This document shows, in pieces, positions 740 to 9,792 of a stretch of 10,178 bases of DNA (position 1 is its first letter; every line of letters starts with the position of its first letter). This DNA is from Firmicutes bacterium UBA1047 (GTDB lineage Bacteria; Bacillota; Clostridia; Tissierellales; Sedimentibacteraceae): NCBI GenBank assembly GCA_002316585.1, contig DCDU01000159.1, forward strand, positions 1 to 10,178. The letters are read 5' to 3'. The position numbers and the translations under genes were made by a program. The notes below the pieces were generated by a model, which worked only from the letters and a program-made list of their open reading frames with translations, ran no database searches and was not told the DNA's origin.

Positions 740-809
740 GAGATTCTTCGCCTGCGGCTCAGAATGACACGCTGCTTTGCAGCTTATCCTGAGCAATGCG
801 AAGAATTTC
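740..809. repeat. Head-to-head REP-like repeat doublet, probable kam terminator
   Basis: Two copies of the window's repeat core face opposite ways around a small hairpin. Core A (740-768, minus strand) has outer stem ATTCT/AGAAT, a GA/GA mismatch, inner stem GCC/GGC and loop GCA. The centre (771-783) is the perfect hairpin GCTGC-TTT-GCAGC. Core B (about 784-809, plus strand) has ATCCT/AGAAT, GA/GA, inner stem GC/GC and loop AAT. The two cores are also complementary to each other, so the whole unit can form one long hairpin. It is followed on the plus strand by a T-rich tract (806-828), as expected of a Rho-independent terminator 14 bases after the kamE stop. The terminator role is inference. 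Confidence 0.8.
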
Positions 810-838
810 TTTCTCTTTTTATATTTATTAAAATATCA

Positions 839-866
839 TTGCATAAGCATGAATATATGGTAAAAT
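839..866 (+). promoter_or_regulatory. Putative sigma-A promoter before the kinase/ABC region
   Basis: TTGCAT (839-844), a 16-base spacer and TAAAAT (861-866) make a reasonable vegetative promoter just after the kam terminator region. Transcription would begin near 873 and give a leader of at least 150 bases before the kinase frame. It is a pattern match only. Confidence 0.45.
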
Positions 867-884
867 GTACTAAATAGGTAGTAG

Positions 885-953
885 CAGGGGTGAAGCTAAT
901 AGTAGCATTAGTTAAAAGACAAAAATAATTACCCTGTTCACGGCAGGGTAATT
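885..953 (+). promoter_or_regulatory. Structured leader with mutually exclusive pairings
   Basis: A perfect 10-bp hairpin (927-936 with 944-953, loop 937-943) contains CCCTG at 932-936 paired with CAGGG at 944-948. A second CAGGG lies upstream at 885-889 and could pair with the same CCCTG, so two alternative folds are possible, as in attenuators. A small hairpin CTAAT/ATTAG lies between them. Downstream, 976-991 (GTC-A-GC, TATA, GC-C-GAC) is followed by a T-rich run to 1010, which resembles a terminator; the same bases are also open in the kinase frame and would encode a membrane helix. No known riboswitch class was recognised. Apart from this, the repeat doublet and the promoter, I see nothing in the gene-free stretch 727-1062. 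Confidence 0.3.
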
Positions 954-1062
954 AACAATTAAAAGTTTTCAATTCGTCAGCTATAGCCGACTTATTTTTA
1001 TACTTTTTTTAGTTGGTAATATAGCTAAATATTATATAAAAACTCAAAACAAACTTTTCATA

Positions 1063-2034
1063 TTGTTTCTTATTGATACCGCTCTTATTTATATAATTGA
1101 GTCCAATTCGCGTCTGTTAATAAATTACTTTTTCCATTCTTTTTATATGATAATTTTCCTCGAAGCATCTCTTACACTGCAGCTTAAAAAAGGAATTGCA
1201 ATCGGAATTATTACGGTAATCATATCAATGATAAAGTACGTATATTTAATTTATTATAAATTTAATTTATCCAATGTATCACAAATGTTTTTCTTTCTTA
1301 TGGTTAATATATTGATTCTGATAATTGCGGCATTTGCCCGAAAGACAAAAGAAGAAAAAGAAAAAAAGGATATTTTGTACAGAGAGCTTTTGGATACTCA
1401 TAAAAAGCTCAAAGAATATACCGATGAGTTGAACAGGCTTTCTGTAATAGAAGAAAGAACTAAAATCGCACGAGACATACACGATACCTTAGGTCACAAT
1501 ATGACAGCTTTGATTATGCAGCTGTAGATGGCAGAGCATTATGCAAAAACCGATATGGAAAAATCAGCCGAAATGCTTAATAATTCTCTAAAAACAGCAA
1601 GAGACAGCCTGTTTGCAATAAGAGAGGTTGTTGAAACATTGAGAGGAAAAGAATCAATTTCGCCGGAAATAAAAATAAAAGCTTTAATTGAACAATTTTC
1701 CGAAAAAACCGGCGCAGAAATAGACTTAAAAATAAGCGGTGAAATTACAGGTGACAATCCGGCAGACTCAGCAATATACCACATATTGCAGGAAGGAATG
1801 ACAAATGCCATAAGGCATGGCAATGCATCTAAAATCCGGATTAACCTTATATATTCCAAGGAATGTATAAAATTTAACATAAAGGATAACGGAGCCGGGG
1901 CATTGGTTTTTGTCGAAGGCTTTGGCATGAAGGGAATAAGGGAAAGGGTGGACTCCTTTGGGGGCAAAGTTGAATTTAAATCACAAGAAGGATTTATTAT
2001 AGACGGAATGATAAAATTGCAGTTGGGAGGATAA
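1063..2034 (+). pseudogene. NarL-family sensor histidine kinase, interrupted by in-frame TAG
   Basis: This is a membrane sensor kinase of the HisKA_3/HATPase_c type that normally phosphorylates a LuxR-type response regulator. One reading frame covers the whole gene but is split by TAG at 1525-1527. The first part (154 codons) has hydrophobic helices, a coiled-coil-like linker (residues 90-127) and the phosphoacceptor box ARDIHDTLGH with His140 (codon 1480-1482). The second part (168 codons from 1528) has the rest of the dimerisation helices, the N box QEGMTNAIRHG (Asn at 1804-1806), the G1 box DNGAG (from 1885) and the G2 box GFGMKG, all intact. The only start candidate is TTG at 1063, without a Shine-Dalgarno. 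The frame stays open upstream to 952 and reads hydrophobic (SRLIFILFLVG), so the true N-terminus seems lost. A response regulator gene, normally adjacent, is missing. TAG is an ordinary stop for three neighbouring genes, so a nonsense mutation is likelier than recoding. The C-terminal part alone has no evident ribosome binding site. Confidence 0.8.
1525..1527 (+). other. In-frame amber codon inside the kinase
   Basis: The protein reads TALIMQL-stop-MAEHYAKTD without a frame change, inside the dimerisation/phosphotransfer domain and 15 codons after the phosphoacceptor His codon. Related kinases tend to have a polar residue such as Glu or Gln here, so a single change GAG or CAG to TAG would explain it. 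Confidence 0.9.
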
Positions 2035-2088
2035 GAAAATTAATATGGAATATTAATATCTTATTAATAAAAAATCGGAGGAATCAGA

Positions 2089-3069
2089 ATGAAAAGAAAA
2101 ATAGCATTGATATTATCACTGCTGCTTATATTATTGACAGTCTGCAATACAAATAATCTTTTAGAATACAAAAAGGCAGCGGAAAAAAGAGAGCAAATTA
2201 CAAAAGGTCAGACCTCAGGGGCATTTACAGTGATTACGGAAATTAACCGGGACGGGTTGACGGCAGAAGAAATAAAAGAGCTTAATTATATTAAAGATAT
2301 GCAGGGCAGCTACAGTGTTGTTTTCGATGAGGATGAAGAAAAAATAATCATCAGAAATTACATGAATTTAGGAGGATTGGGATATGATTTAGAAGTTTAT
2401 ATTAACGGGGAAGAAATGTCCATGAAGCTGCCTGTTGTCGGGAAGTATTTAAAAATAGACAAAGAAATTATCTCAGTCGATGAAGAAGCTTTCGAAAAAG
2501 AAAATCAAGTTATTTCAGAAAAGACTATTAAAGAACTTACTGAAAAGTGGCTCGGCTTAATGAATGAAGAAGATGTTTTCAGAGGAAAAGGCATTATACT
2601 TACAACTCCCGACGGTGAAGTTAAAACAACGGAATATACGATTAAGCTAAATAATGAACAAATAAAATCACTGCTTAAGGATTGTGCCGGAATATTGCCT
2701 GAAGATGAAAATTTAAAAGCATTTTATGAAAAAAACATTCGTGCAAATGCAGAATTTCTACAAATTAAAACCTTTGAAGAATTCATTAATGATATTATAA
2801 AAGCTGCCGAAGAATTTTATGTTGAAAAATTCAATTATACGGCATATGTTGATATTGACGGATATATCGTAAATGAAATTATTGAAATATCGATAAAGGC
2901 AATTGATTCCGAAAAGGAGGGAGTAGTAGGAATGGATTACAATTTAGATATAAAAAGCTGGGATATTAACAAAGAGCAAAAATTTGACTTCCCGGTTCTT
3001 ACGGATGAAAATACTTTAAAAATAGAAGACTTGGACGTGGATATGCCTAATGCCTTCATAAATAATTAG
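2089..3069 (+). CDS. Predicted lipoprotein or membrane-anchored protein of unknown function
   Basis: I do not recognise a named family. The protein is 326 residues, with a basic start (MKRK) and a hydrophobic stretch at residues 5-18 followed by Cys19. The sequence before the Cys is LLTVC; Val at -1 is unusual for a lipobox, so it may be a lipoprotein or may simply stay anchored by an uncleaved signal. The rest is hydrophilic and acidic with alternating beta-like segments (SYSVVFDEDEEKIIIRNY, YDLEVYINGEEMSMKL, YVDIDGYIVNEIIEI), reminiscent of LolA/LppX-like lipoprotein folds; that is an impression, not a match. The start is set by GGAGG nine bases upstream. It lies 9 bases before the ABC ATPase gene, so it is probably co-transcribed and may be an extracytoplasmic partner or sensor for the exporter. 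It occupies the place where a response regulator gene would be expected. Confidence 0.8.
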   Translation: MKRKIALILSLLLILLTVCNTNNLLEYKKAAEKREQITKGQTSGAFTVITEINRDGLTAEEIKELNYIKDMQGSYSVVFDEDEEKIIIRNYMNLGGLGYDLEVYINGEEMSMKLPVVGKYLKIDKEIISVDEEAFEKENQVISEKTIKELTEKWLGLMNEEDVFRGKGIILTTPDGEVKTTEYTIKLNNEQIKSLLKDCAGILPEDENLKAFYEKNIRANAEFLQIKTFEEFINDIIKAAEEFYVEKFNYTAYVDIDGYIVNEIIEISIKAIDSEKEGVVGMDYNLDIKSWDINKEQKFDFPVLTDENTLKIEDLDVDMPNAFINN

Positions 3070-3078
3070 GGGTGACGT

Positions 3079-4008
3079 ATGTTAAAAATTGAAAATTTAT
3101 GTAAAAGCTTCGGCAGTATAAAAGCAGTGGATGACATTAGCTTTGAGGTTAAAAGAGGCGAAGTCTTTGGGCTCTTGGGACCCAACGGTGCGGGAAAATC
3201 AACTACAATTTCTATAATATCCACTCTTCTGCCTCCTACAAGCGGTGAAATACTGTTTGAAGATAACAGTATTTTTAAGAATCCTAAAAATATAAGGCAG
3301 AAATTGGGCGTTGTACCTCAGGATATTGCCCTTTATCCCACACTTACAGGCTATGAAAATTTAAAATTCTGGGGGAATATATACGGGCTTAAGGGTACGG
3401 AGCTTAAAAAAAGAATATCCGAAGTAGCAGATATCATAGGTTTGAACGGGCGATTAAAAGACAGGGTTGAAAAATACTCCGGAGGGATGAAAAGAAGGCT
3501 GAACATAGGCTCGGCGCTTCTTCACAAACCGGAGCTTCTCATTATGGATGAGCCTACCGTGGGAATCGATCCTCAGTCCAGATCACACATTTTGGATACG
3601 GTATTAGGATTAAATGCCCAAGGAATTACAATAATATATACCAGCCACTACATGGAGGAGGTTGAGAATATTTGCAGCCGAATCTGCATAATGGATGAAG
3701 GAAAAATAATCGCATCGGGAACCCAACAGGAATTAGTGGAATTGGTAAAAGAGAAAACACAGATAAATATTAAGTTAGACAATATAAACGAGGATTTGTT
3801 AAACGGCTTTAAATCAATAAACGGAGTTTTTGATGCAAAAATTTTTGAGGACATGATTACGCTTTACGGTGAAAACGGAGATACCATGCTTGCTGAAATT
3901 ATTTCGAAGGTATCAGAGCAAAAAAGCAAAATTCAGTCAATAGATGTTCAAAAGCCCAACTTGGAGGCAGTATTTCTGCATCTTACAGGTAAAGCTTTAA
4001 GAGATTAA
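3079..4008 (+). CDS. ABC exporter ATP-binding protein (DrrA/LnrL-like)
   Basis: This is the cytoplasmic ATPase subunit of an ABC-2-type exporter. All core motifs are present: Walker A GPNGAGKST (residues 34-42), Q-loop Gln81 (VVPQD), signature YSGGM (133-137), Walker B LLIMDE (153-158) and H-loop His190 (YTSHYMEE). At 309 residues it has the usual length of drug, antibiotic or Na+ exporters of the DrrA/NatA/CcmA group, including about 80 residues after the nucleotide-binding domain. AGGGGTGA, starting at the previous stop codon, is the ribosome binding site. Two permease genes follow with 10 bases and then an overlap. Together with the upstream NarL-type kinase this layout resembles LnrLMN of Bacillus subtilis (linearmycin resistance). 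The substrate cannot be read from sequence; export of an antimicrobial or lipid-like compound is an inference from the layout. Confidence 0.93.
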   Translation: MLKIENLCKSFGSIKAVDDISFEVKRGEVFGLLGPNGAGKSTTISIISTLLPPTSGEILFEDNSIFKNPKNIRQKLGVVPQDIALYPTLTGYENLKFWGNIYGLKGTELKKRISEVADIIGLNGRLKDRVEKYSGGMKRRLNIGSALLHKPELLIMDEPTVGIDPQSRSHILDTVLGLNAQGITIIYTSHYMEEVENICSRICIMDEGKIIASGTQQELVELVKEKTQINIKLDNINEDLLNGFKSINGVFDAKIFEDMITLYGENGDTMLAEIISKVSEQKSKIQSIDVQKPNLEAVFLHLTGKALRD

Positions 4009-4018
4009 GGAGACTATT

Positions 4019-5368
4019 ATGAAGGTAATAAGTATTATCATAAAAGATTTGAAAACCGTACTTAGTGATAAACAGGCGATAATAGTCACCATGCTCATGC
4101 CATTGATTTTAATGACTATTTTAAGTGTTGCTTTAAAAGGCTCATTCATTGACAGCGGCGATAATGAAACAGAAAACGTAAATATAGCTGTTGTAAAACT
4201 TTATGATGAAGCAGCGGATTCTCAAATGTTTAAAACAACATTGGAGGAAAGATTAAATATTAATCTTTCGGGAGATGAAGTGCGGCCGGAGGAAATATTC
4301 TTTGAGGATTTTTTAGGAAGCGAAGAAGTTTTGAAGCTGATAAATTACAGAGTTGAAGAAGAAAACACGGCTATGGAGCTGTTAAATGCAGGAGAAATTT
4401 CCGCAGTGATAATCCTTCCCGAAAGATATATTTATGACATGAAAGTTAATCTTCTGACACCATTCAGGAACAATGTGAATGTTAAGGTTCTTACTCATCC
4501 GGACAAAAATATTGCCGGCGAAATAGTAAAATCCGTAATGGAGGCATACACCAACACCATGTCATCAATTATAATAGGCAAGAATGTGCTGATTGAATCA
4601 ATAGGAGCCAATGACCTTGGAGAAGGCGGATATGAAAATATTGATAAAGTAATGGAAGGCATGACATCCATGATGGAAGAAGTAAGCATCAATATTGAGG
4701 ATGTTACGGTTGAAGGAAGAAAAAATATAACAAGTGCGGAATATTATTCGGTGGCAATGATGACCATGTTTATTCTCTATGCGGCAGGACAGGGAGGCAG
4801 GATGCTTTTGGAAGAAAAGGATAATCAAACTTTTCAAAGAATGGTCATTGCCGATATTTCCAAAACTCACATTTTAGCGGGAAAGTTTATGACTGTATTT
4901 TTGCTGGCATCCATACAAATAACGGTAATGATGATTTTTTCATATTTTGCGTTAAAGGTTAAGTGGAGAGACATAAACTCCATTGTTGCGCTTAGCTTCT
5001 CAACTGTTTTTGCGGTAGCAGGATTGGGAGTTTTTATTGCTTCCCTAACCTACCGTACAGAAAACTATAGAATAGCAAATATGTTTGAAAATATTATCGT
5101 ACAGGTGATGGCACTTTTGGGCGGAAACTTCTTCCCAATTGATGTGATGCCGAAATTAATTCAGAAGTTAAGCTTTTTTTCCCTTAACGGCGTAGCCCTT
5201 AATTCATATTTGAAAATTATTCTTGGCTACGGTCTTGCTGATATTTTAAACAATGTTCTCATACTTTCAGCCATAGGAGTTCTGTTCACTGTTATGGGAG
5301 TTGTAATATTCAATAAGGAGGTGTCTGATGATGCTAAGCATAATAAAATTAAGACTGCTAAGGCTTAG
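4019..5368 (+). CDS. ABC-2 type permease with large external domain (LnrM-like position)
   Basis: This is a membrane subunit of the exporter. One N-terminal helix (about residues 20-39) is followed by roughly 200 residues that should lie outside the cell, then about five C-terminal helices (near 242-258, 285-312, 321-343, 359-378 and 408-431). This is the classic ABC2_membrane_3 layout. The segment ALLGGNFFPIDVMP matches the conserved region before the last helices of this family. At 449 residues it is somewhat longer than a typical 380-400, mostly in the external loop. AAGGAG ahead of ATG 4019 sets the start. The 3' end overlaps the next permease gene by 41 bases, suggesting translational coupling and assembly as a heterodimer with it. 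Confidence 0.9.
   Translation: MKVISIIIKDLKTVLSDKQAIIVTMLMPLILMTILSVALKGSFIDSGDNETENVNIAVVKLYDEAADSQMFKTTLEERLNINLSGDEVRPEEIFFEDFLGSEEVLKLINYRVEEENTAMELLNAGEISAVIILPERYIYDMKVNLLTPFRNNVNVKVLTHPDKNIAGEIVKSVMEAYTNTMSSIIIGKNVLIESIGANDLGEGGYENIDKVMEGMTSMMEEVSINIEDVTVEGRKNITSAEYYSVAMMTMFILYAAGQGGRMLLEEKDNQTFQRMVIADISKTHILAGKFMTVFLLASIQITVMMIFSYFALKVKWRDINSIVALSFSTVFAVAGLGVFIASLTYRTENYRIANMFENIIVQVMALLGGNFFPIDVMPKLIQKLSFFSLNGVALNSYLKIILGYGLADILNNVLILSAIGVLFTVMGVVIFNKEVSDDAKHNKIKTAKA
5315..5323 (+). promoter_or_regulatory. Strong Shine-Dalgarno inside the upstream permease gene
   Basis: AAGGAGGTG is a nearly perfect anti-16S match lying inside the last codons of the first permease gene. It serves ATG 5328, or the adjacent ATG 5331, which has slightly better spacing. 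It explains how the overlapping second permease is efficiently translated. Confidence 0.8.
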
Positions 5369-6500
5369 AGATGATTATATGGTATTTTTAGTTATGACGG
5401 CAATGGCAATGGTCTTTACCGCGGTATTCGGATTTTCCTTCAACAGCTACAGACCATCCGTAATAATAGTTGATAAAGACAAAACCCCATATTCGGAGGA
5501 ATTCGTTAATGAGCTGAAATTAAGCAATATTTTTAAATTTACCGATTCAGATATAGACAGTGCTTCCCTGCAGGTGGAAGAAGGAGATGCATTGGTTGCA
5601 TTAATAATAAATGAAGGTTTTCATAACAGTATTGAAAATGGCAATAAAATAATTATAGGGCAAATTAAGATAAAGGATGACACTTATATTTTTACATTGC
5701 AGGAAACCGTAAGGAGTATAATTGCGAAAATGGCAGGCAGCGAAAGAATTGCAGAAGCTGCTGCGGATTTTATTTCTTTTCAAAAACCAACTGCTGACAG
5801 AGAAGAAGCAAAAGCATCGGCTTACAAAGCCGTAAAGGAATCCTGGAAATATAAAAACCCCTTGAAAATTACCTCAACAGTAGCTAATACAAATATTCAG
5901 TCCGGTTATGACGGTCTTAAGCATTCAATGATTGGATTCACCATATTTTTTTCAACATATACCATGGTTTTTTCAATAGGAACAATACTTAGTGATAAAA
6001 GATATAAAACATGGGAAAGGATGCTTATATCTCCCGTATCAATGTCCTCCATATTAGGCGGTACGATGGCAGTTTCCTGCCTGGTAGGATTTATTCAAAT
6101 GGCGGTATTAATTTTCGGAGGCAGATATTTATTCGGAATGGATTGGGGTGACAGCATGGCAGGAATTATTACGGTATCAACTGCCTTTGTGTTTACCGTA
6201 ACAGCAATGGGACTTATGATGTCCGGCATTGTAAAAACCCAGGCTCAGCTTGGTGCGGTAGCACCTGTTGTTTTAACCAGCTCCGCAATGCTTGGAGGCT
6301 GTATGTGGCCCCTTGAAATTGTAAACAACAAAGCGTTGTTATTTTTGGCGGAGCTCACACCTCACAAATGGGCAATACAGGGGATGGAATCTATCGCAGC
6401 AAGGGGCATGGGCTTTGAAGCAGCAATAATGCCAACAATGGTACTGTTGATAATGGGAATAATTTTCTTTGTAATTGGAGTAAAAACGGTGAAACAATAG
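5328..6500 (+). CDS. ABC-2 type permease, second subunit (LnrN-like position)
   Basis: This is the second membrane subunit of the exporter, 390 residues. It has one N-terminal helix (about 16-37), an external region to about residue 200, then helices near 201-221, 241-264, 280-302, 308-328 and 365-386. The segment SAMLGGCMWPLEIV, followed by LTPHKWAIQGM, is typical of the ABC2_membrane_3 group. Its distinct sequence from the first permease suggests a heterodimer with the ATPase encoded at 3079. It is the last gene of the operon, ends TAG and converges on cinA, with a hairpin between them. Confidence 0.9.
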   Translation: MMLSIIKLRLLRLRDDYMVFLVMTAMAMVFTAVFGFSFNSYRPSVIIVDKDKTPYSEEFVNELKLSNIFKFTDSDIDSASLQVEEGDALVALIINEGFHNSIENGNKIIIGQIKIKDDTYIFTLQETVRSIIAKMAGSERIAEAAADFISFQKPTADREEAKASAYKAVKESWKYKNPLKITSTVANTNIQSGYDGLKHSMIGFTIFFSTYTMVFSIGTILSDKRYKTWERMLISPVSMSSILGGTMAVSCLVGFIQMAVLIFGGRYLFGMDWGDSMAGIITVSTAFVFTVTAMGLMMSGIVKTQAQLGAVAPVVLTSSAMLGGCMWPLEIVNNKALLFLAELTPHKWAIQGMESIAARGMGFEAAIMPTMVLLIMGIIFFVIGVKTVKQ

Positions 6501-6563
6501 TATAAAGTAAAAAAATTGAATTTAACAAATGAAAATAAGCTTGATAGTGATGAAATGAATACT

Positions 6564-6620
6564 GACGGGGACATTCCTTCTATACGCAAAGACTCCCTAT
6601 GGTAAAGGTGTGTCCCTGTC
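6564..6620. repeat. Inverted repeat between convergent genes, possible terminator
   Basis: GACGGGGACA (6564-6573) and TGTCCCTGTC (6611-6620) are inverted copies with one G-T wobble. CCTT (6576-6579) and AAGG (6605-6608) extend the stem after a 2x2 internal loop. The unit lies between the permease stop at 6500 and the cinA stop at 6628, so it could terminate both transcripts, although neither side has a strong T run. The locally higher GC and terminal symmetry would also fit a short mobile repeat. No target-site duplication was clear. Confidence 0.55.
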
Positions 6621-6627
6621 TATTTGT

Positions 6628-7878
6628 TTATCTTTCAATACACTTTCTCAACAAATCCAAAACCGTATTAGCCGACCTCTCCCTGATAGTGTCCCGTGTT
6701 CCGGTGGCATGAATATTTTTCACCTCATATTTTCCATCATAATAGACACATACATATACCAAGCCTACGGGCTTTTCTTTGCTTCCTCCGTCGGGACCCG
6801 CAATACCGGTGGTAGATACACCTATATCACTGCCTGAAACCAAAGCTGCGCCGTATGCCATTTCCTTGGCAGTCTGCTCACTGACTGCTCCGTATTTTTC
6901 TATGGTTTCTTTTTTTACACTTAATGTTCTGATTTTCGATTCATTGCTGTATGCAACAAAGCCCTCCAAGAAAGATTTGGAAATACCCGGATAACCTATG
7001 AGCTTTGAAGCAACAAGACCTCCTGTCAGAGACTCTGCGACAGAAACGGTCAGATTTTTGTTCAGCAGCAATTGAGCAACTTTATCTTCAATCTTACCGC
7101 TGTCAACAATATAAGCATTTTCTTTTCCGAAGCGCCTGATTAATTCTTCCGTTACCGGCTCAATAAGTGCTTTGCACTTTTCCTTATTCTCAGCCTTTGC
7201 GGTAATTCTGAAAATTACCTTGCCTGCGCTGGCAAATGTTGCAATCGTAGGATTCACTTGATTTTTTATAATATCAAGAACCATTTCCTCGGCGGCAGAT
7301 TCGCCTATATTTACGACAATTAATTTTTCGCCGTAAACAACCCAATTTGAAAATTGTTTTAGATAAGGTATTACCTCGGAGTCCATAAGAGGCTCCATTT
7401 CCTTTGGAGGTCCGGGCAGCAATATTCCTATTTTGTAATTTCCTTCACTGTCCTTTCCTCTGTAAATACATGCATTGGCAGTTCCGTTCGGGTTGTTCAG
7501 CACTATAGAGCCCTTTGGAAAAAAGGCTTGCCTCATATTGTTTTGAGGAATGTTTTTCCTAAATCGCGTATACATTTCTATTACATGTTGATAACTATTT
7601 TCGTCATAAACCATTTCAACTCCGAAATATTCAGCCAATGCCTCCTTTGTTATATCATCCTGAGTAGGTCCGAGACCTCCCGTGCATATAACAATATCTG
7701 CCCTTGAAAAGCAAATTCCAAAGGCATTCTTCATTCTTTCCGTATTGTCGCCAACAACGGTTTGATAATGCACATCAATGGCTATTTCAGCCAACTTTTT
7801 GGAAATATATTGTGCATTTGTATTGACAATATCTCCATGCAAAAGCTCACTACCTATACAAAGAATTTCAGCATTCAT
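6628..7878 (-). CDS. cinA: CinA family protein (MoCF-like domain plus nicotinamide-nucleotide amidase)
   Basis: The protein is 416 residues, the full length for CinA. The N-terminal COG1058/MoCF-like domain shows CIGSELLHGDIVNTNAQYIS (7-26), TGGLGPTQDD (66-75), NPNGTA (129-134) and LLPGPPKEM (153-161). The C-terminal PncC/CinA-C domain shows AESLTGG (281-287) with Ser283 as the likely catalytic residue, and TTGIAGPDGG (356-365). PncC-type enzymes convert NMN to nicotinate mononucleotide and ammonia in pyridine nucleotide salvage. The N-terminal domain in other bacteria acts as a pyrophosphatase, and the name comes from competence in streptococci. The frame is open 27 codons further, but that part reads through the upstream repeat, while GGAGG six bases before ATG 7878 marks the true start. 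The peptidase gene lies upstream on the same strand, so co-transcription is likely. Confidence 0.95.
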   Translation of the reverse strand: MNAEILCIGSELLHGDIVNTNAQYISKKLAEIAIDVHYQTVVGDNTERMKNAFGICFSRADIVICTGGLGPTQDDITKEALAEYFGVEMVYDENSYQHVIEMYTRFRKNIPQNNMRQAFFPKGSIVLNNPNGTANACIYRGKDSEGNYKIGILLPGPPKEMEPLMDSEVIPYLKQFSNWVVYGEKLIVVNIGESAAEEMVLDIIKNQVNPTIATFASAGKVIFRITAKAENKEKCKALIEPVTEELIRRFGKENAYIVDSGKIEDKVAQLLLNKNLTVSVAESLTGGLVASKLIGYPGISKSFLEGFVAYSNESKIRTLSVKKETIEKYGAVSEQTAKEMAYGAALVSGSDIGVSTTGIAGPDGGSKEKPVGLVYVCVYYDGKYEVKNIHATGTRDTIRERSANTVLDLLRKCIER

Positions 7879-7884
7879 TTTATT

Positions 7885-7889
7885 CCTCC
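7885..7889 (-). promoter_or_regulatory. Ribosome binding site fixing the cinA start
   Basis: GGAGG on the minus strand, six bases before ATG 7878. It excludes the longer frame to 7959, whose extra 27 codons come from repeat DNA. Confidence 0.85.
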
Positions 7890-7911
7890 AAATTGTAAAT
7901 ATAGTTATATC

Positions 7912-7957
7912 GAGGGTCACGCCCTCGTCATTCTGAGAGCGCAGCTCGAAGAATCTC
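7912..7957. repeat. REP-like repeat, core plus hairpin module
   Basis: A small hairpin (7912-7926, GAGGG/CCCTC) abuts a 31-base core (7927-7957). The core folds as outer stem ATTCT/AGAAT, GA/GA mismatch, inner stem GAGC/GCTC and loop GCA. This copy has the longest inner stem, four pairs against two or three elsewhere. It fills most of the gap between the peptidase and cinA genes, and its last two bases are part of the peptidase TGA stop codon. Confidence 0.85.
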
Positions 7958-8981
7958 ACTCCGTCAAAGCAGCGTATTTTTTCGCATCACCCTTAACCTC
8001 ATTATAAACCTCTATTGCCTTTTCTGCAAAAAATAATCCTGTACTTTTTCCATGCTGCCATACCAACTCTTCAAACATATAATCCGGATGCTGCTTTCCT
8101 CCTTCGACAAAGGGCGATAATTCCACACAAAATGCAGGTCTTCTCATCCTTTTTCTAAACCAGTTTTCAAAACCGCAGCCATAAATTTTCGGGTCGGCAC
8201 TCACTTTAGTCTTTCTGTAAATAAACCTTTCATTCAGCTCATCCATTATTTTTTCATCCAGACCGTTAAACATATGATGTGTTCCGCTGTCGGCCCAAAA
8301 AGTACAATTCCCTGAGCAGTGATAAGAAACCATCAAAGAAAAACTATTTTTATTGCAAAAATTAACCAATGCTTTAGTTTCCGGCTCGCTGTTTGCCTCA
8401 TAACCCTTAAATCTTTCGGAACAAGGCACACCTGTTCCCGGTACACAAGCTCGTATATCCCAGTTTCCGTCATCAAAGTTTTTATTTAAATCAACTCCGT
8501 TTGCATTTGCCTTCCAATATGTATTATCCTCGCCCCATATTTTCATATCCCTTAATTTATCATAATTGGAGGATGCTTTTATTCCGTTATGAACAATATT
8601 AAGACCGTCCGGATTTGCGGCAGGAACAAAATACATATCTGCATTGTTAATTATATTCATAACATCAAAGCAATCAAGTATTTTACCTTCATTATAATAA
8701 TAACAATATTGCTCAATCATTTTCATACACAGCATAACGGAAAAATCTTCCCGTGCATGTATTCCTCCCACAAATAAAATTAGGGGTTTTTTGTCATTCT
8801 GAGCGCAGCGAAGAATCTCCTCCCTTTCCCCCGAAATCTTCAATGCAACAATATCCCTTCCTTCAACCGACTTGCCTATAACCTTTTTACTCAGAATACT
8901 ATCGTATCTCACACAAAGCTTATCCATATCCTCATATATTTTATCTAAAAAATAAGTATCGGAAGTATCAACTATAAACAT
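7956..8981 (-). CDS. M14 family zinc carboxypeptidase carrying a repeat in frame
   Basis: This is a 341-residue metallopeptidase without signal peptide, so probably cytoplasmic. It may cleave peptides or cell-wall peptides; the substrate is unknown. Zinc ligands are His75 and Glu78 (GGIHARED) and His221 (SYHCSG). The general base is Glu288 (FCVELSP). Also conserved are VPAANPDG (119-126) and NGVDLNKNFD (161-170); Lys167 stands where carboxypeptidases usually have the Arg that holds the substrate carboxylate. Residues 53-62 (REEILRCAQN) are translated from a repeat core inserted between two strands. The C-terminus ends against another repeat. ATG 8981 is chosen because GAGGG lies five bases before it and the likely promoter would put the transcript start near 9003; the ATGs at 8996 and 8993 have no ribosome binding site. 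It is probably co-transcribed with cinA. Confidence 0.9.
   Translation of the reverse strand: MFIVDTSDTYFLDKIYEDMDKLCVRYDSILSKKVIGKSVEGRDIVALKISGEREEILRCAQNDKKPLILFVGGIHAREDFSVMLCMKMIEQYCYYYNEGKILDCFDVMNIINNADMYFVPAANPDGLNIVHNGIKASSNYDKLRDMKIWGEDNTYWKANANGVDLNKNFDDGNWDIRACVPGTGVPCSERFKGYEANSEPETKALVNFCNKNSFSLMVSYHCSGNCTFWADSGTHHMFNGLDEKIMDELNERFIYRKTKVSADPKIYGCGFENWFRKRMRRPAFCVELSPFVEGGKQHPDYMFEELVWQHGKSTGLFFAEKAIEVYNEVKGDAKKYAALTE
8793..8819. repeat. REP-like repeat core inside the peptidase gene
   Basis: A 27-base core without the side hairpin, with outer stem ATTCT/AGAAT, GA/GA mismatch, inner stem GC/GC and loop GCA. Its length is exactly nine codons and it is read in frame on the minus strand as part of EILRCAQND. 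It falls in a loop between two predicted strands of the M14 fold, ahead of the zinc motif. Confidence 0.88.
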
Positions 8982-9009
8982 ATTCGCCCTCATCATTTGT
9001 AATATGTTT

Positions 9010-9039
9010 ATTATAATATAATAGCTTTCAATTATTCAA
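9010..9039 (-). promoter_or_regulatory. Putative promoter of the peptidase-cinA unit
   Basis: On the minus strand, TTGAAT (9039-9034), an 18-base spacer and a perfect TATAAT (9015-9010). Transcription would start near 9003, about 22 bases ahead of ATG 8981. This supports that start over 8996, which would be nearly leaderless. Confidence 0.6.
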
Positions 9040-9060
9040 CAATTTTGTCATAATAAGTCG

Positions 9061-9091
9061 AGGCATATCGCCTGATAAAGCAGTTTTTGCT
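9061..9091. other. Two small hairpins between divergent promoters
   Basis: AGGC-atatc-GCCT (9061-9073) and AGCA-gtttt-TGCT (9079-9091). The first resembles the GAGGG/CCCTC hairpin module at 7912 and an AAAGCAG string follows in both places, so this may be a decayed repeat relic. It could equally be a regulatory site for one of the flanking promoters. Confidence 0.3.
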
Positions 9092-9119
9092 CTAACATAG
9101 CTTAAACCCCATTTTTTTA

Positions 9120-9148
9120 TTGCTTACAAATTTTATTAATGCTATAAT
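9120..9148 (+). promoter_or_regulatory. Putative promoter of the DUF308-like gene
   Basis: TTGCTT (9120-9125), a 17-base spacer and a perfect TATAAT (9143-9148). Transcription would start near 9155, leaving a short leader with AAGGGGA before ATG 9178. Confidence 0.6.
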
Positions 9149-9177
9149 AAAATCAGCAAACAAAAGGGGATGGTTTC

Positions 9178-9735
9178 ATGCTTTCGAATCTGAATATTCA
9201 ATCAAAAACATTGAAAATACTAAGCTTGATTCTTACGATAACAGGAATCATATTTATTTTGGCATCAAAGCATATCGGAAGTATAGCCATTCGTTTATCA
9301 ATGATTCTGCTTTTAATATTCTGCATTATAAATTTTAAAATAACATACAAATATTTATCAATGAAAGAAAAAATAACTCACTTAACAGCTGCGACAGCAG
9401 CTGTCATAGGCATTTACAAACCTGAATTAACCATTCTGATTTTAGGGATATTCCTGCTGTACCTAAGCCTTCCGGCATATATTAAGTCAATTAAAAATAA
9501 GGATTATTCAGATATATTAACACTGATTATATCCGGGACAGGCATATTATTTGCCGTTCTTTGTATCCTAAACTCCAAAGCAGCCCTTCAAACAATAATA
9601 ATTATAATAGGAATAGCTTTAACCATACTTGGCTGTATATCCCTCTATCAGGTATTGACTTCAGACAAAAGCAACATATCCGATTATAATACGGAAGATA
9701 ACAACTTCACAATTGAAGATAACAAGTCATCCTAA
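9178..9735 (+). CDS. HdeD/DUF308-like integral membrane protein
   Basis: A 185-residue protein with about six hydrophobic helices (near 11-29, 33-53, 66-80, 83-101, 113-131 and 136-157) arranged as three pairs, and a short acidic, Asn/Asp-rich tail (162-185) that is probably cytoplasmic. The pair layout and the last helix (QTIIIIIGIALTILGCISLYQ region) resemble the HdeD/DUF308 family, known in enterobacteria as an acid-stress inner-membrane protein; no function is established for clostridial members. AAGGGGA precedes ATG 9178, and a promoter of its own is visible. It is divergent from the peptidase gene and appears monocistronic, with a repeat 15 bases after its stop. An overlapping frame from 9120 lacks a ribosome binding site and is a shadow. 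Confidence 0.8.
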   Translation: MLSNLNIQSKTLKILSLILTITGIIFILASKHIGSIAIRLSMILLLIFCIINFKITYKYLSMKEKITHLTAATAAVIGIYKPELTILILGIFLLYLSLPAYIKSIKNKDYSDILTLIISGTGILFAVLCILNSKAALQTIIIIIGIALTILGCISLYQVLTSDKSNISDYNTEDNNFTIEDNKSS

Positions 9736-9750
9736 AGTGAAACCTATTAA

Positions 9751-9792
9751 GGGCGCAGCCCGTGTCATTATGAACCGAAGGTGAAGAATTTC
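9751..9792. repeat. REP-like repeat, diverged core plus hairpin module
   Basis: The hairpin GGGC-GCA-GCCC (9751-9761) is followed by GT and a 29-base core (9764-9792). The core keeps the fold with different bases: inner stem ACC/GGT and loop GAA, GA/GA mismatch, and outer stem ATTAT/AGAAT with one mismatch. It lies 15 bases after the stop at 9735 and is followed by TTATTATTG, so it may act as that gene's 3' end. Confidence 0.8.

Follow-up and report, generated by a model that had tools for sequence, protein, structure and literature searches.

A dispersed hairpin repeat with a tandem G-A module that looks like a new branch of the mobile palindromic repeats

Repeat copies in the window

The subject of this study is a short palindromic repeat in a 10,178-nucleotide stretch of DNA from Firmicutes bacterium UBA1047 (Sedimentibacteraceae; contig DCDU01000159.1 of assembly GCA_002316585.1), referred to below as the window. 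The repeat begins with a GTC tag and appears to form a new branch within an established class of mobile palindromic repeats, of which the CGTC-tagged repetitive extragenic palindromes (REPs) are the closest. A search with the pattern GTCAT-N(11-21)-GAAGAAT returned four clean copies from the window, compared with a mean of 0.03 and a maximum of one in any of 200 dinucleotide shuffles. A fifth, decayed copy forms an inverted pair with copy 1 (Table 1). This result confirms the existence of the repeat family that an initial annotation had proposed from the sequence. The same annotation held that all five cores share GTCAT and GAAGAAT, which is true of the four clean copies and fails for copy 2, where GTCAT is missing. 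Its reading of the inner stems and loops (GCC/GGC, GAGC/GCTC and GC/GC with GCA, ACC/GGT with GAA), and of a GA/GA step between inner and outer stem, agrees with the sequence.

Table 1. Repeat copies and adjoining small hairpins in the window
Feature	Position	Strand	Sequence and context
Repeat copy 1	743..768	-	GTCATTCTGA GCC GCA GGC GAAGAAT; tag at 768; 16 bp past the stop of ORF 1-726
Small second hairpin 5' of the copy 1 tag	771..783	-	GCTGC-AAA-GCAGC; tip between copies 1 and 2
Repeat copy 2, decayed	about 783..806	+	CTTATCCTGA GC AAT GC GAAGAAT
Small hairpin	7912..7926	+	GAGGG-TCACG-CCCTC; immediately 5' of the copy 3 tag
Repeat copy 3	7927..7954	+	GTCATTCTGA GAGC GCA GCTC GAAGAAT
Repeat copy 4	8793..8816	+	GTCATTCTGA GC GCA GC GAAGAAT
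Small hairpin	9751..9761	+	GGGC-GCA-GCCC; 2 nt 5' of the copy 5 tag
Repeat copy 5	9764..9789	+	GTCATTATGA ACC GAA GGT GAAGAAT; 28 bp past the stop of ORF 9178-9735

With DNA as well as RNA parameters, the copies at 743, 7927 and 8793 are predicted to form an outer stem of 5 bp, a GA/GA mismatch, an inner stem and a GCA tip. The outer stem contains one C-A mismatch in copy 2 and one A-G mismatch in copy 5 (ATTAT/AGAAT), and fold prediction did not return the family hairpin for the tagged strands of these two copies (784 and 9764) alone. Three of the four loci lie just 3' of genes, and the tail of copy 3 adjoins the stop codon (7956-7958) of a peptidase-like open reading frame (ORF 7956-8996). 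A search of the window with Rfam covariance models at E values up to 5 gave a single match, below the cut-off and not at any copy.

Family size and distribution

The strict core GTCATTCTGA-N(4-16)-GAAGAAT is present in 21 of the 25 genus genomes, with 561 copies in total and between 0 and 90 per genome; the reversed control pattern does not occur at all. The assembly to which the window belongs (G000; 62% complete, 238 contigs) contains 8 such copies; a looser pattern matches 12 places there, and its reversed control 2. In one relative (G018) a single centre variant accounts for 11 of 37 copies at different loci (20 pieces). Outside the genus, 6 of 36 other relatives contain the strict core, and a stricter pattern was found in 4 of 299 genomes drawn across the phylum, including that of the window.

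The core also occurs in at least 120 stretches of named genomes. Their titles, which we sorted ourselves and which stand for stretches not all checked singly, name more than 20 phylum-level groups: Bacillota (Clostridia and others), Bacteroidetes, Chloroflexi, Cyanobacteria, Acidobacteria, Nitrospirae, Nitrospinae, Planctomycetes, Elusimicrobia, Omnitrophota, Armatimonadota, Zixiibacteriota, several groups of the candidate phyla radiation, Helicobacter, delta-, beta- and alphaproteobacteria, and more. Many of these records are metagenome bins; isolates include Pedobacter, Mucilaginibacter, Helicobacter marmotae, Calothrix and Sedimentibacter hydroxybenzoicus. No archaeon appears among these titles, and since the order of the scan is not known, this absence is only a hint.

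The counts below draw on three samples of copies: loci from the own genome and the genus, contigs of genomes (genome contigs), and viral contigs. One viral match, seen in 16 contigs with the same flanks (centre GGAGCGCCATTTACAC), was taken for one phage and a chance match. It was omitted from the counts of gene orientation, outer triplets, tips and mismatches over all copies, and genus tips, and was kept, deduplicated by flank, in the counts of inner pairing, of tips and modules (165 and 335 copies) and of strand bias. The base before GTC, which is itself fixed by the pattern, is T in 81% of 148 copies from genome contigs and in 87% of 149 copies from viral contigs.

Covariation of the stems

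We assessed covariation by pair counts. In 616 copies collected with a free outer triplet (GTCAT, GA/GA and AT fixed), this triplet is fully Watson-Crick paired 563 times, in 12 of 55 distinct combinations (TCT/AGA 398, CCT/AGG 118, GTT/AAC 18, GCT/AGC 8, TCC/GGA 8 and ACT/AGT 6 being the most frequent). When both sides of the triplet are changed, full pairing is retained in 165 of 196 cases, compared with a mean of 80 and a maximum of 92 over 1000 control dealings. The combinations GCT/AGC, TCC/GGA and CCT/AGG recur at 5, 4 and 27 genome-contig loci, respectively.

The inner stem behaves in the same way. At least two nested inner pairs are present in 83% of 327 deduplicated copies, in 13.5% after shuffling of letters and in 58% when the halves are dealt anew. 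Among 82 distinct cores with a 7-nt centre, 93.9% of the cells are paired versus 82.6% in shuffles (sd 0.7) and at most 50.3% in slid versions, and 72 cells with changes on both sides compare with 16.9 in shuffles; a cell here stands for a sequence and not for an event. At 5, the number of pairs that show any two-sided change is within the usual range of shuffles (185 of 500). RNAalifold predicts the same structure from these cores. Covariation of the inner stem, as initially suggested, and of the outer stem is thus well supported by comparison of the copies.

The tandem G-A module

The claim that the GA/GA step is constant was addressed by a search that left these positions free (GTCATTCT-N(8-20)-AGAAT). 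Among 697 places in the 25 genus genomes (27 for the reversed pattern), 561 have GA on both sides, which corresponds to about 80-84% of genus copies. In viral contigs GA/GA is present at 79 of 120 places; many of the others look like background, and four read GA/TC. Two of these four are GAACTTGTTTC, which we take to resemble the fully paired CGTC type. The step also occurs twice in the same hairpin: 49 of 335 copies contain a second, nested GA/GA one stem segment closer to the tip, and in 42 of these an inner stem of 2 bp or more follows above it (example centres: GGAGCGAAGCGAC and GGGAGTGAAGCGACC). Judged from these copies, the module is strongly favoured and not invariant, and its modularity is a new point. 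It is kept in the clean copies of the window and at most places in the genus. Both unpaired inner stems and a variable GA/GA position, which the initial annotation had named as grounds for giving up its proposal, do occur as minority exceptions, as in the G018 subfamily GTCATTCTGAGG...ACGTAAGAAT (for example at locus L387). Behind the one copy of this subfamily that we viewed with its flanks, the second half of a pair follows as usual.

Loop types and the choice between DNA and RNA

In seven-base centres the tip reads GNA in 142 of 165 copies and TNC in none. This asymmetry identifies the tagged strand as the one that folds. Over all copies we counted 228 GNA, 3 TNC and 71 GNNA tips. A genus sample weighted to G018 contains C-TT-G (16 of 126), GNNA (40 of 126) and GNA tips (36 of 126). 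Hairpins of the type d(GCGNAGC) are unusually stable. Contrary to the RNA tetraloop rule, the GNNA tips are mostly GNYA (59 of 71) and rarely GNRA (12 of 71). Single non-Watson-Crick pairs are G-T in 22 and A-C in 17 cases over copies, and 13 versus 18 on the 82 distinct cores, which gives no clear sign that RNA wobble pairs are tolerated, at low power. Because the GNNA tips ignore the GNRA rule and G-T pairs show no clear excess, DNA is favoured over RNA. Loop and mismatch types therefore suggest that the repeat would act as single-stranded DNA. Selection for a single-stranded fold, one of the original proposals, is well supported by the covarying stems, the GA/GA module and the strand-specific GNA tips.

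Pairing, gene context and strand

Most copies that lie within 200 bp of each other are arranged head-to-head with the tags outside (59 of 92 pairs in genome contigs, 13 of 21 in the genus, 32 of 61 in viral contigs), often with spacers near 20 nt. The counts of gene context, from which matches within 300 nt of locus ends were omitted, place 17 of 36 G018 copies in convergent gaps, in pieces chosen around copies. As a share of intergenic copies, convergent gaps account for 50% in G018 (17% for random positions) and 37% in genome contigs (21%). In G018, 1 or 2 of 36 copies, depending on the count, lie inside an ORF, and in genome contigs crude ORF calls enclose 39 of 139 copies (for example at L060, L074 and L127). 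Some of these ORFs are long (958-1271 amino acids), suggesting further in-frame insertions.

The excess in convergent gaps and the position just 3' of genes at three of four window loci raise the question as to whether these hairpins are RNA elements, that is, terminators or 3'-end stabilisers of transcripts whose pairing is selected in RNA. The inverted pair of copies 1 and 2 (727-835) indeed gives a strong joint RNA fold (z -6.05 versus shuffles) followed by a T-rich stretch, and the same-direction gaps of G018 contain 9 sense and 3 antisense tags. However, sense and antisense are even in the larger sets (25/23 in genome contigs, 34/32 in viral contigs), the G-T counts show no clear excess, and the tips do not follow the GNRA rule. 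No copy was found among 18 terminator-like sites of the window, in a scan whose loop limits would miss the long hairpin of a pair, and neutral avoidance of genes and promoters would also lead to a location after genes. We therefore regard a role in RNA as unlikely.

Insertion in a peptidase gene

Copy 4 lies in frame within ORF 7956-8996 (- strand) and encodes the peptide EILRCAQND. From the motif GGIHARE, we read this ORF as a putative zinc carboxypeptidase of the M14 type. Matches were found in 14 of the 25 genus genomes, two of which (30% and 28% identity) were weak and were set aside. Among the remaining 12 M14-like orthologues, the insert at the copy 4 site is present in 3, including the one in the window, and absent from 9. 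The gene in G000 carries one copy, and those in G007 and G018 contain, in our reading, several decayed copies within this same loop, with the frame kept open. The stop-codon end of the gene is occupied by copy 3 in G000 and by a decayed copy in G008. These inserts may have been gained repeatedly at sites that tolerate them, or a single old gain may have been followed by losses; the data are compatible with both. For annotation it is relevant that such short repeats introduce peptides like EILRCAQND into genuine reading frames.

Carrier elements in related genomes

In G018, many pairs are contained in longer units with inverted arms, of which at least three kinds can be told apart by eye. Arms above the 99% level of shuffles flank 14 of 35 head-to-head pairs in G018, 4 of 12 at genus loci, 7 of 43 among genome contigs and 7 of 27 among viral ones. 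One kind of unit is a shell that resembles a miniature inverted-repeat transposable element (MITE), with the ends TTGATGACAAA and TTTGTCAATAGTC. Six of seven measured shells are 124-127 bp long and one is 174 bp (G018 and G003; loci L371-L390 and L421-L455, for example L389 at 16089, and L452). With up to 2 mismatches, the shell end GGTTTGTCAATAGTCT gives 90 matches in G018, 41 in G003, 32 in G022 and 28 in G010, compared with 0 to 4 for reversed controls. By eye, an intrinsic terminator hairpin usually follows this shell directly, and a second copy of the hairpin often lies on the shell's other side (examples: CCGCTGATTTCTCAGCGGTTAG, AACCCCCTAGCAATAGGGGGTT). The duplicated stretches at the seven measured shells are 9 to 22 nt long, five of them beyond the 1% control. 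One narrow literature query found no report of such terminator-duplicating target use. The interior of the shell is interchangeable and consists of this repeat pair or of other palindromes.

The own genome contains one pair (C51) between perfect 16-nt inverted arms and, by eye, another copy next to an end that resembles the shell's (3 mismatches), at a terminator; shell ends of the exact type gave 1 match there, which is control level. No ISL3 transposase was found in G018, G003, G007, G022 or G010, and ISL3 was rejected as the mobiliser of the shell. One high-copy element of G007 (for example L458-L460), whose end is related, contains the subterminal hairpin CCCGCTAAAAATTAGCGGG and a frame starting with MKNQS; 13 places match it over nearly its whole length, and contig ends account for at least 10 of these. 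The autonomous element of the shell was traced to contig ends in G007, and it did not turn up in searches of plasmids or of the genus.

Such carriers suggest that the repeat might be passive cargo: a stable hairpin pair in single-stranded DNA or a cruciform, without an enzyme of its own, copied by carrier MITEs and spread between them by recombination, with stems and GA/GA kept because unstable palindromes are removed or because the carriers need the fold. The variety of arm types in G018, the exchangeable interior of the GGTTTGTCAATAGTCT shell and the two examples in the own genome are consistent with this idea. On the other hand, arms in genome and viral contigs, although more frequent than the 1% expected by chance, flank a minority of the pairs. 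Neither inverted arms nor target duplications are visible by eye at the window copies, and the same core is found across many phyla, in which carriers were not sought further. We consider this explanation rather unlikely.

Additional hairpins and other features

The initial annotation missed a further hairpin on the 5' side of the tag, which is frequent in the own genome and not general. Within 24 nt 5' of the tag, 8 of 10 own-genome copies have a hairpin of at least 4 bp, 6 of them G+C-rich. These six G+C-rich hairpins lie 0-3 nt from the tag, four with a GNA or GNNA tip, and their stem variants include GGGC/GCCC, GCTGC/GCAGC and GAGGGC/GCCCTC. The copies concerned include those next to the three small hairpins in Table 1 and those at loci L001, L004 and L507. 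In other genus genomes such hairpins occur at 6 of 31 copies and at 7 of 31 control positions. As a general trait of the family the 5' hairpin was rejected, as it accompanies 15.7% of 332 copies and other positions give 10.5-18.7%.

Elsewhere in the window, a histidine-kinase-like frame (1063-2034) is split by an in-frame TAG (1525-1527) into ORFs 1063-1527 and 1528-2034, which would make it a pseudogene or points to a sequence error. An imperfect palindrome at about 6565-6622 (GACGGGGACATTCCTT...AAGGTGTGTCCCTGTC) resembles a string (AAGGTGTGTCCCC) beside the copy at locus L508, so that another repeat family is likely.

Mobilising enzyme and interpretation

REPs may be mobilised by Y1 tyrosine transposases of the IS200-like, REP-associated tyrosine transposase (RAYT) type, and the initial annotation had offered a target of such an enzyme as one hypothesis, to be checked by looking in the same genome for a Y1 gene flanked by the repeat. 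The layout of a tag 5' of the hairpin foot and of inverted pairs is indeed that of GTAG REPs and of REP doublets forming hairpins (REPINs) (PMC6006769, PMC3116915), and Y1 genes are present in 18 of the 25 genus genomes. However, the own assembly, at its 62% completeness, contains no match to PF01797. Y1 genes and copy number do not track each other either: G001 has 60 copies and no Y1 gene, and G024 has 5 Y1 matches and no strict copies. Among 41 Y1 places, 20 loci were inspected, and no copy lies within about 1.5 kb of Y1 as far as the contigs reach. The CGTC repeats, as they are described, likewise lack an association with a transposase (PMC3733652). A Y1 partner is therefore not supported and appears very unlikely. 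The initial statement that such repeats have no settled function stands.

We favour the reading, to which we give about even chances, that the copies are REP-type elements with a CGTC/TGTC tag, whose hairpin is recognised in single-stranded DNA by some trans-acting enzyme, and which replicate as pairs. The single-stranded tagged strand would fold into an unpaired (T)GTC tag, a 5-bp outer stem and the tandem G-A mismatch, above which an inner stem of mostly 2-5 bp would carry a GNA or GNNA tip, sometimes CTTG. This enzyme, which would process single-stranded DNA, would most likely read tag, lower stem and G-A module by their sequence and the inner stem by its shape. Because of the excess of head-to-head pairs, the replicating unit is probably such a pair, as in REPINs. 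In relatives, the pairs are arranged as cargo of MITE-like shells at terminator hairpins and may multiply as such when the shells insert. The single copies and the decayed inverted pair of the window would then be remnants, tolerated shortly downstream of genes and in one case in frame within a gene. The patchy occurrence within the phylum (4 of 299 genomes) and, as evidence of insertion, the presence in 3 and absence in 9 of the 12 M14-like orthologues count for this reading.

Several observations weigh against an active element of this kind. The mobilising enzyme was not found in the families searched (Y1, and in the genus only, for the shell, ISL3), and movement is visible only as presence or absence between species. 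The predicted energies of single hairpins are small, and the complement nearly equals the tagged strand (-1.9 versus -1.7 with DNA parameters). The ACGTAAGAAT subfamily of G018, with 6 copies among the matches listed, lacks GA/GA as well as an inner stem that clearly pairs, and since the covariation sample fixed GA, GTCAT and AT, these positions are beyond its reach. The sense preference in G018 would suit a role in RNA, even though the other sets are balanced. Finally, a mechanism that uses single-stranded DNA of the lagging strand might predict a replication-strand bias, and solitary copies show none in genome contigs (13 versus 11, with 52 of 76 too weak), in G018 (7 versus 3) or at genus loci. 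Solitary copies in viral contigs (L158-L277) are biased (16 versus 51); of 67 cases with clear skew (52 others being weak), 51 have the tag on the strand rich in C, and gene orientation (34 sense, 32 antisense) does not account for this bias.

A broader proposal would be that a single hairpin grammar, consisting of a TGTC tag, a lower stem, one or two tandem G-A modules, an inner stem that matters by shape only and a GNA or CTTG cap like those of Streptomyces telomeres, is read across phyla by a widely distributed protein that binds or cuts single-stranded DNA. Such a reader could have been overlooked because it is not a Y1 transposase; we find this proposal speculative and doubt that it holds. 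The occurrence of a near-identical sequence in many phyla, patchy within a phylum, calls for either a common host factor or transfer that took place repeatedly. At the time of their definition, CGTC-type repeats lacked a known mobiliser (PMC3733652). The hairpin described here, with its covarying stems, modular G-A element and DNA-type caps, provides a sharper handle on this problem, in the form of oligonucleotides that can be synthesised and used to fish out a binding protein.

Comparison with known systems

Among the papers listed by a literature search with the core sequence, the titles point to primer or chance matches, and titles and abstract starts of publications on CGTC repeats since 2013 contain no description of this core. 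A 2025 survey, RepRanger, reportedly covers REPs broadly.

In the text that defines them, CGTC-tagged REPs have a CGTC tag with TGTC variants, occur in head-to-head pairs and within genes, come without a transposase, and include dRS3 of Neisseria and RPE-4 and RPE-6 of Rickettsia (Di Nocera, De Gregorio and Rocco 2013, PMC3733652). This description gives stems of 8-9 bp, loops of 4-5 nt, tails that are mostly CCA, and four families in five phyla, with Firmicutes not among them. The repeat studied here shares the unpaired tag (as TGTC), a stem that starts with A-T and T-A (positions fixed by our search pattern), a short unpaired tail, mostly head-to-head pairs, intragenic copies, pairs inside larger palindromes in some species, and the lack of an associated transposase, in our case Y1. 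In contrast to these families, the stem is split by the tandem G-A into 5 bp and mostly 2-5 bp, with an optional second G-A module; the tips are mostly GNA or GNNA, of which the commonest, the 3-nt GNA, falls outside the loop definition and the 4-nt GNNA would fit; the tail reads CT(C); and the hosts are Bacillota and many more phyla. The stem and loop definitions are thus unmatched because of the G-A module and the triloops. These text definitions set the repeat apart, and it may still be identical with one of the families.

GTAG REPs and REPINs, as described in PMC3116915 and PMC6006769, have in common with this repeat the tag 5' of the hairpin foot, inverted pairs as the likely unit, a patchy high copy number and an intergenic position. 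Unlike the GTAG REPs with a RAYT, the tag here is TGTC and not GTAG or GTGG, and no Y1 gene stands beside copies in the 20 loci. Like Rickettsia palindromic elements, as cited in PMC3733652, it is a short palindromic repeat found in frame in protein genes, a likeness that we draw from description. The telomeres of Streptomyces contain palindromes capped by GCA, GGA, GNA and CTTG loops with sheared G-A pairs, which are said to resist single-strand nucleases (PMC7205883). Those hairpins, compared here by tip and not by sequence, form chromosome ends, whereas the same tips in our family cap repeats that are dispersed over the genome.

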